A DNA stretch of 64,000 nucleotides from Methanomicrobiales archaeon HGW-Methanomicrobiales-1 (GTDB taxonomy: Archaea > Halobacteriota > Methanomicrobia > Methanomicrobiales > Methanospirillaceae). A program made the translations under genes and the position numbers. The first letter of the stretch is position 1. Each line of letters begins with the position of its first letter. Shown piece after piece: positions 17,931-22,306 of this stretch. The stretch lies in assembly GCA_002839675.1 (NCBI GenBank), contig PGYM01000003.1, forward strand, positions 310,001 through 374,000, given 5' to 3'. The notes under the pieces were generated by a model. The model saw nothing but the letters and a program-made list of their open reading frames with translations, was not told where the DNA came from and searched no databases.

Positions 17931-20249
17931 TTAATCGTATCTCCTGAAGAGTGCCGGGTTCTGTTTACGAATCCACCAGCGCCGGACGAGAAGTACACAG
18001 ATGACTATGATCACGATTACCGCAACCCACGCCAAAATGGTGACCAGCGTGATTCCCTGCGTTGGGAAGAAGATCTCTATACCCGACGAAAAGGACTGCG
18101 GCGCTGCTGCGTTTACCGTTGTCACGGGAACCGGGAGCATTGTTGCAGGACCGGTGTTCAGCGCAGTCGCAGGTTCGGTCACGGCAGTATCAGCCGCTTT
18201 TCCCGGAAGATCTAAAAACGTTCCGGCCTGTGTCACGTTGCCAGCACCATCAGTCGCGCCCGGTAATTTCACGGTGATGGCAAAGTAGGAGAAGCCCGGC
18301 GTTGTTGTCACATACTGGTACCGGTCTGCCAATGATTGATCCAGCCTTGTTGGCAGCTCGACCCACTGGTTGTTGGTATATCGCATCATCACGATCTGGT
18401 CCGGTAAAACAGCGTGCGTGTCAAGCCATGATTTGCTCACGCTGAACGCGATATCTGCATGGTCGATGGCATCCGGGTTGACCCAGTTCATCGTGATGAG
18501 CTCGTACCCGGCCACGGCCCGGCCGGTCAGCTGGAAAGCGGTGGCCGGGATTGTCGGCTGGACAAGACACTGGGTCTGCCCGATCTCCCGTGATGGCGTA
18601 ATCGAAACCGATGAAACCGATGCCGGAGCCGAGGGTGATGCCGGACTGAATGCAAAGACGGCAACTGCACCGGCCCTGGCACCCGGGAGGATCACCGATT
18701 GCGGGGCTGTTGAAGAAGCGTCGCGATTGTCACCGTCGCCCGGCGCCGGAGCAGGCTCCGGCCGGGTCATCGTCACCGTGAAGGAAGTCTCGGTCTGCGT
18801 TACCGGTGTGCCGGATGCATCAACCCCCGCAAGGCTGATCGTGTAGGTGCCGGGTGACGGCAGCTCCGCGACTTCGATCCCGAACTCCCAAAGCGAGTTG
18901 AACCGCGTCTGGCTGCCGGCCGTGTAGAGCCGGGACAGGTTCACATCATGGAAGCCCGTGCGAACCAGCGTCCCGGCAGCATCGGTGATTGTGCAGTTGA
19001 TCCGGGTGATCCGGTTGTTGATGGTGTACCGGTACGGGGTTGCGGTGGCGGTGACAGCTGAGGCGATCGGTTTGGTGACTCCGTAGACGACAAACTCCTT
19101 TCCCTGCGGAACGGTTACGCCCCCGCCGGGATTCAGGTTCAGCGTTTTTTGGGTTGTGGCATCGTTGGGATCGTACAGGTTTTCCGCGCTCGTGCCGCCG
19201 GGCGAAACGATCTCGGCCCGGTACAGGACCAGCCGCTGGTTTGTTGCAAAGGGGGTCGCAGTTCCGTCCAGAGTTCTTACGCCGGAAGATATATCGTTGT
19301 ACGTGATCTGCGGCTCTCCGATGTTATGGTAGATGAACGTGGTATTGGGACTATCCCCCAGGCCGAATTTCAGGATTGCCGCAAGCTCGACACCGTACGT
19401 TGCGCTGCCGGAGTTCAGGTTATAGATGAACATGGAATTATTCGCAACGGCCGGGACATCAGTAAGGGTCCCCGGGCGATCATTGACCACTTCGATCCCG
19501 TTGTTCGGTGTCCAGCGCTTGGGAGCTTCCCACCAGATGTTGCTGTTGTCGGGGTCGGTGAAATACCCGGGGAACCAGTCGAAGTAGATGCGACGGTCGT
19601 GGACAATTGAGTACTGGATAAGTGCGTTCTTGTTCGAAGTCGGGCGGAAGGTCCCGAGAATGGCACTGGTCCGGTTCAGCGAGATCGTCTTGTTCACTTC
19701 AAGCCCGGAAAAAGATCCGGAGAGCCCGGTTACTTCGATCGTATAATTGCCAGTGGTCAGGTCTGCGAGCGGGGCGCCGGTGCTGTCCGTGTAATTCGTA
19801 TCGAATCCCTTCGTCACGCCCCCGAGTATCATCCCGAGGTAGTAACGGTTAGTCACCACCACTTTGTTGCCCGGGTTGAGAATCCCGCCCGGCAATTCCA
19901 TGAGGTCCGGTACCATGGCGCTGTTTTTCCGGGTGCAGGAACCGGTCACGGTGCAGTACGTCTGGTTGAGGACGCTCTCATTGGTAATTCCCGTGACCGG
20001 GTCGACCCGGCTCTGGATGACCCGGACCGGAGTTCCGGCAACGGTATCGCCCGGGTAGAGTTCGATCCGGATATCGCCCGGGTTTGTTACGGTGTTGGTA
20101 AATATTCCGTACACGTAAAAGTCGCGTTCCTCGGCAAGGAGCGTTTCATTTGCGCTCGGCTGGGTGATGACAAGGTCCTGGACTGCACTCACTGCCGGCA
20201 GGGACAGGAACAGTACTGCCAGTAGTAAACAGAACGCGACCCGGTTCAT
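17931..20249 (-). CDS. Large cell-surface protein with PGF-pre-PGF domain
   Basis: A 772-residue exported protein. It has a signal peptide (residues 1-22, ending VSA), three or more Ig-like or DUF3821-like beta domains, a Pro/Ala-rich linker near residue 510, then a PGF-pre-PGF domain (about residues 565-690; KSWLDTHAV, VMMRYTNNQWVELPT, TTPGFSYFAITV), a Thr/Ala linker and a C-terminal transmembrane helix with a basic tail (RRWWIRKQNPALFRRYD). PGF-pre-PGF domains usually precede a PGF-CTERM signal cut by archaeosortase A, but here a conventional TM anchor stands in its place. Likely an S-layer-associated glycoprotein. Confidence 0.85.
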   Translation of the reverse strand: MNRVAFCLLLAVLFLSLPAVSAVQDLVITQPSANETLLAEERDFYVYGIFTNTVTNPGDIRIELYPGDTVAGTPVRVIQSRVDPVTGITNESVLNQTYCTVTGSCTRKNSAMVPDLMELPGGILNPGNKVVVTNRYYLGMILGGVTKGFDTNYTDSTGAPLADLTTGNYTIEVTGLSGSFSGLEVNKTISLNRTSAILGTFRPTSNKNALIQYSIVHDRRIYFDWFPGYFTDPDNSNIWWEAPKRWTPNNGIEVVNDRPGTLTDVPAVANNSMFIYNLNSGSATYGVELAAILKFGLGDSPNTTFIYHNIGEPQITYNDISSGVRTLDGTATPFATNQRLVLYRAEIVSPGGTSAENLYDPNDATTQKTLNLNPGGGVTVPQGKEFVVYGVTKPIASAVTATATPYRYTINNRITRINCTITDAAGTLVRTGFHDVNLSRLYTAGSQTRFNSLWEFGIEVAELPSPGTYTISLAGVDASGTPVTQTETSFTVTMTRPEPAPAPGDGDNRDASSTAPQSVILPGARAGAVAVFAFSPASPSAPASVSSVSITPSREIGQTQCLVQPTIPATAFQLTGRAVAGYELITMNWVNPDAIDHADIAFSVSKSWLDTHAVLPDQIVMMRYTNNQWVELPTRLDQSLADRYQYVTTTPGFSYFAITVKLPGATDGAGNVTQAGTFLDLPGKAADTAVTEPATALNTGPATMLPVPVTTVNAAAPQSFSSGIEIFFPTQGITLVTILAWVAVIVIIVICVLLVRRWWIRKQNPALFRRYD

Positions 20250-20346
20250 ATATTGAGAATGTCCCGCCAGTGTTCATAACCCTTATTATTTAATCCGGCC
20301 GTACGTGTCGGGTCTGCCCCGGTCAGGCTGGATCTGCCGTGTGGGG

Positions 20347-21115
20347 GTACGGAAAAAAGGTGCTTTTTCCGGGTTCGGGTATTCCTGCCCGGGACCTTGG
20401 GAGACCTGCATTCCCTCGACCCCCATTCTCCGTCGGAGGCCCGCTCCACGGGCATGAGTCATGACCCCCAAATTGACATGAATTCATGGAAAAACGACAC
20501 TATTGTTTTTGGAAAATTGCATATCGGGCCCGGTTTGGCTGGATTCCCCCGTTAACGGGCTCTAAAAAAACCGCTAATAGCATCAATTGGATGGCCGATC
20601 GTTTTTCGGATTAAGGGTAGTTAATGGAAAATGAAAAAAAGGGCTTTTTTGGGGCTCGAAACGGAGGGACTCCTCGTCTGACTACGGCGTGAAATGAGTG
20701 GGTTATGATTTTGCAGAACCCTGAGTGACCTGTACTTTTCCAAACCCTGTTCTCCGTCGAAGACTTCTGTTTCATGAAGACGTCCCGACCCGCATTTTAG
20801 CATGAATTGGGGTATTTCCAGTACATCAGTTTTCAGAAAACCTCGAATTGCGCCCTGTTTGGCTTTATTCGGCATAAATCGGGCTCTAAAAATATCCCCT
20901 GATATCACCTTTTAGATGGCCGATCTCATGTCGGATTGGCTGAAGTAGGTGGAAAATGAAAAAAAGGCCTTTTTTGAGGCTCGGTCCCAGGACATCTCAC
21001 GTCAGATAACGACGTGAAATCCACCCGGGATGGGGCACTTCCGAGCCTCATGGGGCAGACTATCCCTCTCAACCCATAAGGGTTCAAATTCGCCCCGGAT
21101 TGTTCCATTTACCCA
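20347..21115. repeat. Diverged tandem repeat of about 320 bases, two full copies plus parts
   Basis: Aligned landmarks recur in order: an A/T-rich dyad (20351-20370, 20634-20650, 20959-20975), CTCCGTCG at 20429 and 20752, CATGAATT about 40-50 bases later, GGTTTGGCT/TGTTTGGCT, GGGCTCTAAAA (20557 and 20881), ATGGCCGATC (20591 and 20916), and GGAAAATGAAAAAAA (20625 and 20951). The dyads keep symmetry although their central bases differ. The third unit fades after 21090. On the minus strand the units encode weakly similar short peptides, so decayed small ORFs are an alternative. Confidence 0.65.
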
Positions 21116-21464
21116 TACCCGACCGGCCTGTTTCGCGTTTTTTCCTGTACGTTCTTTCCGGAAACCCTGTTTTTAGCCTCTGATGGGGAAACGGGGGGAT
21201 TTACAGCGAGAAAAACCGGCCTATTTGGTGCAGTTTGGATTGAGGATCTCAGGTTGCCCCGGTGTGCAGAGCATCGGATGCAAAAAAAAGGCAAAAAAAC
21301 CCCTGTTTTCCGCAAATGTTAAAAATAATTCTTTGACGAGCCTGCCGAAATTTTATTGAACGATTTCCATAGTTCCGGATTTTTTTCCCATCGCGAAAAC
21401 GATCGCAATCAGATTTTTTTTAAAAAGGTACGGGACCCGGTATAGATTGAAATTTTCCGGTCAC

Positions 21465-21510
21465 GGCCGGATTATTTTTCCGGGCTAAGGTCCGGCCTTT
21501 TTTTTATTTT
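21465..21510 (+). terminator. Strong hairpin-plus-T terminator on plus strand
   Basis: Arms GGCCGGA (21465-21471) and TCCGGCC (21491-21497) are perfect complements, followed at once by eight T, an A and four T. The loop is 19 bases. No plus-strand protein gene lies upstream for more than 3 kb, so it may end a non-coding transcript from the repeat region. Confidence 0.55.
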
Positions 21511-21682
21511 GTCCGTTGAAAATTGTCCGGCAGGAAATAATTGAGGGTACACGATTCTGCGGCAGGGTCAGGAAATTAATGGAAAATTTTCCAGACCCGG
21601 TGCGATTCATCGGTCAGCAACTTTTCAACTCAAGTCTGGGGGTCGATGAAAAATTTTTCAGAAACCCCGGATATTTCCACGC

Positions 21683-22306
21683 TCATTCCCAACTTCCATC
21701 GATCCATGCTTTCAGAATATCAAAATCCCGCTTCATCGTTGCCCTGCTCAGCGCCTGCGCCCGGGTCAGCATCCTTTCCTGGACAAAATCATATTCGCAA
21801 AGAATCCGGGAATTCCTGAGCAGGGTTGCCCGGATCGGGTGGTGCCGGTATATCACGCTCTCCTGTTTTCGGAAATACCATTTGATCCTCTGGAACGTAA
21901 GCCAGTCAAGTTTCATGGCGAGCGTGGCATGGAACCGGAAATCTTCGGCATTGTCCAGATCATATTTCCGCAGCGAGCAGTAAGGGGAGATTGCCTGAGA
22001 CAACTGGTAGCGGAATTGTCTCAGGGTCTCATCAGGAGTGATCGTAACGAAAACAACTCTCGTGTCGTCAAAAAATCCGTAATGTCCCACCTCATATTTC
22101 GGGATCTCTTTCTGGCTCGTACAGATTCTGGTGAAATCTGCGATGAGTTTGTTTTCATCCGTTGTCGAAAAAGGCCCGGCCAGCGTGATATGCGGGGTCA
22201 CCAGTTTATCCCCGAGATTAAATTTTTCCGCAAGGTGATTGCTTAGCGTGCGGATCTGCTGCTTCACCGACCCCATCAGCCGGATATCGATCAGGTAGTG
22301 AGTCAT
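21683..22306 (-). CDS. 2H-phosphoesterase (2'-5' RNA ligase-like) protein
   Basis: A 207-residue protein of the 2H superfamily, which includes RNA 2',3'-cyclic phosphodiesterases (ThpR/LigT). Both catalytic signatures are present: HITLAGPF near residue 39 and HATLAM near residue 128. The spacing of about 90 residues is normal. Family members act on RNA ends, cyclic phosphates or nucleotide signalling molecules. The C-terminal 60 residues are an extension beyond the core fold. It stands alone beside the non-coding repeat region. Confidence 0.8.
   Translation of the reverse strand: MTHYLIDIRLMGSVKQQIRTLSNHLAEKFNLGDKLVTPHITLAGPFSTTDENKLIADFTRICTSQKEIPKYEVGHYGFFDDTRVVFVTITPDETLRQFRYQLSQAISPYCSLRKYDLDNAEDFRFHATLAMKLDWLTFQRIKWYFRKQESVIYRHHPIRATLLRNSRILCEYDFVQERMLTRAQALSRATMKRDFDILKAWIDGSWE

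Follow-up and report, generated by a model that had tools for sequence, protein, structure and literature searches.

In the archaeal genome G000 (2.47 Mb, five contigs), an intergenic interval of about 1.4 kb holds a three-unit array belonging to an interspersed DNA repeat family of the methanogenic genus Methanoregula that is non-coding and non-autonomous, and the reading preferred here, with a probability of roughly 0.6, is that this array reflects local, orientation-keeping recombination together with occasional insertion elsewhere. The family is real, non-coding, genus-specific and mobile in evolutionary time. Neighbouring direct copies would recombine in ways that keep their orientation, so that arrays gain units in tandem and exchange them by gene conversion, and genes entering the islands would push the units apart. 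Now and then a putative enzyme acting in trans, which recognizes four conserved blocks of the unit, would seed a new intergenic site in a step resembling transposition. Individually, the copies are probably without a function for the host and most would be decaying, though the homology they provide may keep variable intergenic islands changing.

Archaeal MAGs contain long intergenic gaps that usually receive little attention; the one studied here is explained by a repeat family spread across the genus. The family probably breaks assemblies, its copies often being found at contig ends, as expected of repeats of that kind. Copies are strictly co-oriented at short range and random in orientation when more than 20 kb apart. 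This constraint can be measured and is not foreseen by ordinary transposon models, so that the way in which long non-coding repeats spread in archaea with no visible transposase becomes a question that can be tested. Should the units recombine, methanogens would have in them a means of exchanging toxin-antitoxin and surface genes.

The array and its units

The window (the whole 64,000-nt stretch that was analysed) corresponds to G000:C3:310001-374000, and the gene-free interval spans window positions 20250-21682, between two minus-strand genes. The gene at 17931-20249 (minus strand), divergent from the array, encodes a 772 aa surface-type protein for which Pfam gives no confident domain, while the gene at 21683-22306 (minus strand) encodes a member of the 2'-5' RNA ligase superfamily (PF13563, E 9.8e-19) and has its 3' end towards the array. 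Three head-to-tail units, two good and one relic, lie on the plus strand within 20352-21310; the remainder of the interval (20250-20350 and 21310-21682) is flanking non-coding sequence only. The first-pass annotation had described this region as one without a gene that bears diverged units of roughly 320 bases containing an A/T dyad, a description that holds up well. An unprompted repeat finder recovered two pairs of direct repeats, 20564-20658 / 20889-20983 (76% identity) and 20505-20568 / 20829-20892 (70%), both at a spacing of 324-325, and a profile built from related copies (nhmmer, whole window) found exactly three units, at 20402-20690 (E 6e-71), 20727-21015 (E 1.5e-73) and 21152-21309 (E 9e-7). 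TRF did not detect the array at this locus. A CRISPR array was rejected on that ground and because the units are only about 68% identical over about 290 nt.

The unit is about 325 nt long, and the joints between units are marked by a short A/T-rich dyad. Four such dyads occur in the array, at about 20352, 20633, 20958 and 21282 (spacing 281, 325 and 324 nt). The family motif for the dyad has two matches in the window against 0.01 expected by chance, one at the joint between the first two units, U1 and U2 (20633-20658, plus strand, beginning GAAAAAAAGGGCTTTTTTGGGG), and one at the joint between U2 and the third unit (20958-20983, plus strand, beginning GAAAAAAAGGCCTTTTTTGAGG). Weaker versions are legible by eye at about 20352 and 21282; the former, ggaaaaaaggtgctttttccg, is a degenerate dyad at the left array edge (20352-20372, plus strand) whose place in the unit alignment equals that of the dyads at 20633 and 20958.

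U1 (20400-20691, plus strand) is a full-length copy matched by R1, a sequence-only model, and by nhmmer over all 290 positions. It contains the near-invariant block TTCTCCGTCGGAG (20426-20438, plus strand), which overlaps the palindrome TCTCCG-N-CGGAGA. U2 (20725-21016, plus strand; R1 and nhmmer) is also full-length and carries the counterpart block TTCTCCGTCGAAG at 20750-20762 on the same strand. Global identity between U1 and U2 is 68%, where shuffles reach 56% on average and 64% at most. Adjacent as they are, the two belong to different subfamilies in the tree. The closest relatives of U1 lie elsewhere in its own genome and are 83% (G000:C1:796688) and 80% (G000:C1:453498) identical to it; since U1 thus has kin elsewhere and U2 lies on another branch, the array is a mosaic and not a simple tandem duplication. 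The third unit, a relic of the X subfamily, extends over 21080-21309 (plus strand), with the aligned core at 21152-21309, and this stretch (query 831-1060) was also matched at several other places in G000.

Distribution and genomic sites of the family

The R1 search found the family in 38 of 39 Methanoregula genomes, at 1-47 copies each, which excludes a prospect raised by the first-pass annotation, that the locus would have no further copies. A control of 100 genomes of the order yielded 16 copies in one sister genus (G064), a single copy in another genus of the same family (G108), two units in G069 and two marginal single matches elsewhere, the remaining genomes having no unit. Within the order, then, the family is almost confined to Methanoregula and one sister genus. 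The two units of G069 (G069:C336:2384-2854), a MAG with 4% contamination that belongs to another family, represent either a transfer or a stray Methanoregula contig. Neither viral contigs, searched by exact pattern, nor plasmids, searched by distant blastn, gave a match. The part of the literature on Methanoregula intergenic repeats that was covered holds no description of such units, and to that extent they form a previously undescribed non-coding interspersed family.

Every mapped copy is intergenic (84/84), and copies show no orientation preference relative to the genes flanking them. In the tree, copies cluster by genome, with 15 changes compared with 22.9 when shuffled (0/200 as low). One G000 locus between two divergent genes has about 1.1 kb with three units (L017:2346-3530). 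With the flanking genes kept, the same gap measures 115, 90, 93, 63 and 99 nt in G008, G023, G035, G020 and G016, respectively, and about 150 nt in G029, in each case without a unit; the units at this site in G022 are oppositely oriented, and G015 has an unrelated gene. A deletion could also, in principle, have produced the short gap in the relatives, but six species have that gap in common. This gap (also L115 and L116) is a hot spot, where G015 has an RDD/TPR-type gene and G022 one that is AbiTii-like, both names being readings of the sequence. The window locus offers no clean empty site: orthologues of its right-hand gene are present in 35 of the 39 genomes with changing neighbours, and only three other genomes have a unit at the 3' side of the orthologue. 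Elsewhere, a metG-like gene is 90% identical in DNA between G000 and G001 (L018:3988-6024 and L037:1347-3383), and both genomes have units at its 3' side, oppositely oriented in the two.

Once in place, copies appear to be under little constraint as wholes. Orthologous units of G018 and G021, compared with 200 nt on each side, were conserved to much the same degree as these (0.92 vs 0.97 and 0.97; 0.90 vs 0.96 and 0.94; 0.96 vs 0.86 and 0.89; 0.91 vs 0.85 and 0.95). Overall, unit identity is 0.84-0.96 against 0.75-0.97 for the flanks, so that units are not clearly more conserved, and the near equality indicates that individual copies drift nearly freely.

These properties recall MITEs, which are defined as short, ORF-less, multicopy, intergenic and patchy between species (PMC3852290, PMC10969869); the family, too, has no coding capacity, is multicopy and has units under about 500 bp. 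It might accordingly be MITE-like, a non-autonomous transposon belonging to some known insertion-sequence family whose transposase moves it in trans, and lineage-specific clusters of intergenic, ORF-less copies that are present or absent at an orthologous site are what such an element would leave. This is nonetheless unlikely. Flanking inverted repeats reach p <= 0.05 in 3 of 55 clusters, which is the chance level. The window's own array is one of the three, a perfect 12-nt inverted repeat (TAATCCGGCCGT / ACGGCCGGATTA, window 20291-20302 and 21463-21474) bracketing the whole block, but with p about 0.01 here and 3 of 55 loci reaching 0.05 the bracketing is probably chance. Moreover, the ends of copies vary and no target duplication was seen. 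Head-to-tail arrays and co-oriented clusters also set the family apart, and random insertion would not produce the 38:1 co-orientation at 1-20 kb. The Y1 transposase (PF01797, Y1_Tnp), the sole transposase family searched genome-wide for an autonomous partner, is absent from G000 and occurs in only 5 of the 39 genomes. More generally, exact ends, target duplication and inverted termini were not found, the ends not being sharp pairwise and the empty site being too diverged for a duplication to be read, and we therefore only infer insertion by a transposase.

A similar comparison applies to REP/BIME elements and their RAYT (Y1) transposases, as described in PMC2817692. Like these, the family is extragenic, contains palindromic pieces and forms modular mosaic arrays and genus-specific families. 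Its units are about 325 nt, however, whereas REP/BIME are short palindromes, and they are always head-to-tail (24/24 tandem) where REP/BIME alternate. Since orientation does not alternate and G000 lacks a Y1 transposase, identity with REP/BIME was rejected.

Shared orientation and proposed local exchange

Tandem neighbours have the same orientation without exception (24:0). Neighbours 1-20 kb apart, with genes between them, are co-oriented in 38 of 39 cases (p = 1.5e-10), or in 36 of 37 after deduplication of two G018/G021 orthologous pairs at 5-10 kb that had been counted twice. Beyond 20 kb, orientation is random (the same in 22 of 52, or 22:30). All of these counts rest on the copies among the matches listed and not on every weak match. 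The co-orientation of neighbours 1-20 kb apart is a new and unexpected observation, and one that random insertion does not predict. Its simplest cause would be that units spread and are exchanged when direct copies lying near each other recombine, while other DNA comes in between. Polarity of the whole chromosome (replichore polarity) was judged an unlikely source, since copies more than about 20-50 kb apart are no longer co-oriented.

Comparison of G018 and G021 offers some indication of such exchange. In one collinear pair, where the surrounding 7.7 kb is 93% identical, identity falls to 64% across one unit region at the orthologous site; the G021 unit instead matches, at 86% identity, the neighbouring G018 unit that lies 5 kb off (L160:1769-1990 vs L161:1836-2059), as expected of conversion between neighbours. 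A variable island also separates collinear flanks in the two genomes (G018:C1:2053600-2079200, 26 kb; G021:C1:2002200-2019700, 17 kb), and its homologous pieces are all direct, with the order partly changed. Most of the reordered pieces are repeats, though, and the unique shared segments are mostly collinear, with a single pair swapped, so the island is suggestive only as support for recombination. Several direct copies of another repeat, distinct from the family and about 300-580 nt long, also lie in this hypervariable island.

The segments between units contain several ordinary genes. In five genomes, a minimal nucleotidyltransferase / HEPN (MNT-HEPN) toxin-antitoxin pair is found close to units, at a distance of about 0.1-1.3 kb (L022:2533-3163, L029:1688-2328, L041:8716-9373, L042:963-1600 and L043:3507-4141), and the module is 87-90% identical in DNA among three of the species. 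G000 and G008 share, at 85% identity, a GNAT acetyltransferase segment of about 1.1 kb, which is situated between units in both (L020:10385-11462 and L043:6588-7657).

It is conceivable, then, that the units form a recombination-site system, that is, directed sites between which cassettes, toxin-antitoxin pairs included, are gained, lost or shuffled in the manner of attC sites and with no integron integrase. The co-orientation up to 20 kb despite intervening genes, the MNT-HEPN and GNAT modules that lie beside units and are 85-90% identical between species, and the direct but partly reordered pieces of the 17-26 kb G018/G021 island would all suit such a system. Against it stand the absence of strand bias among genes beside units, the several ordinary genes within inter-unit segments, the mostly collinear unique segments of the G018/G021 island with their single swap, and the location of the only tyrosine recombinase in G000 (PF00589, a single match at C3:48684), which is on the same contig as the window array but >280 kb from it; none was found in the incomplete G008. 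This makes a cassette system of that kind quite improbable. The somewhat wider proposal, in which directed sites would reshuffle small islands with toxin-antitoxin cargo through either homologous recombination or a putative block-reading recombinase, as an archaeal counterpart of cassette arrays lacking an integron integrase, is scarcely less doubtful.

Integron attC arrays themselves resemble the family in having repeats of one orientation separated by genes, with toxin-antitoxin modules among them. That said, no integrase was found on the array contigs searched, the family's units are long and non-coding, its genes lie in both orientations, and it forms many small islands in place of one array. 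As regards an attC-like hairpin, RNAalifold and the comparison of candidate hairpins showed no conserved pairing in the unit. The distance of the sole tyrosine recombinase and the presence of adjoining genes on both strands led to rejection of integron identity. Satellite-like tandem repeats share the head-to-tail arrangement, fixed period and drifted edges, but the family has one to few units per site at dozens of sites, and adjacent units can be of unlike subfamilies. In sum, the family works most like a non-autonomous interspersed repeat with an array behaviour of its own.

Conserved blocks, coding capacity and RNA structure

Conservation within the unit is uneven. Among 34 copies from 11 genomes, conserved columns are clustered, the variance over 10-column windows being 0.094 when the largest of 2000 shuffles reaches 0.052, and conservation falls in four blocks, TTCTCCGTCG, TTTGGATGGC, GAAAATGAAA and CTGTTTTGGG; TCTCCGTCGGAGA is a block of the unit sequence. 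The earlier impression that the order of landmarks is kept while the sequence drifts is thus substantiated, the clustering lying beyond all of the shuffles. Such blocks, together with the near-invariant palindrome TCTCCG-N-CGGAGA, the A/T dyad and the intergenic position, might mark an array of binding sites, under selection, for a chromosome-organising or regulatory protein. Binding sites in that sense are, however, very unlikely, given that copies have no orientation to flanking genes, vary in number from 1 to 47 between species, are absent at orthologous sites and, as whole units, show no clear excess of conservation over their flanks. A promoter, terminator or leader role was ruled out because orientation to flanking genes is random.

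The lack of a good reading frame, noted at the outset from the window, extends to the family. Stop codons occur in all six frames of the 34 copies at 3-4.6 per 100 codons, near the random rate; codon (3-base) periodicity is absent from all six, and indels are mostly 1-nt. With no shared open frame that has codon periodicity, a protein-coding or pseudogene family was rejected, and, by the same stop density, periodicity and indels, protein homology of the minus-strand frames is absent.

A family of structured non-coding RNA genes, which the conserved blocks and dyads, tandem units and retained order might have suggested, can hardly be credited: RNAalifold predicts 0 pairs over the 34 copies, the 100 column pairs that covary most strongly by mutual information are mainly complementary in 4% of cases vs a background of 4.7% (no Watson-Crick enrichment), candidate hairpins are paired no more often than independent columns predict, folding energies of single copies give z-scores around 0 vs shuffles on both strands, Rfam has no match at the gathering threshold or at E <= 1, orthologous units drift like their flanks, and orientation to neighbouring genes is not fixed.

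Of the two readings put forward by the first-pass annotation, structured RNA thus finds no support, and a decayed element family is supported, in keeping with dispersed genus-wide copies, lineage-specific clustering, presence or absence at an orthologous site and near-neutral drift. Pure decay would not be the whole story, since the clustered blocks imply some recognition of parts of the unit. The blocks are conserved across subfamilies, and would therefore have been recognized in those lineages that spread.
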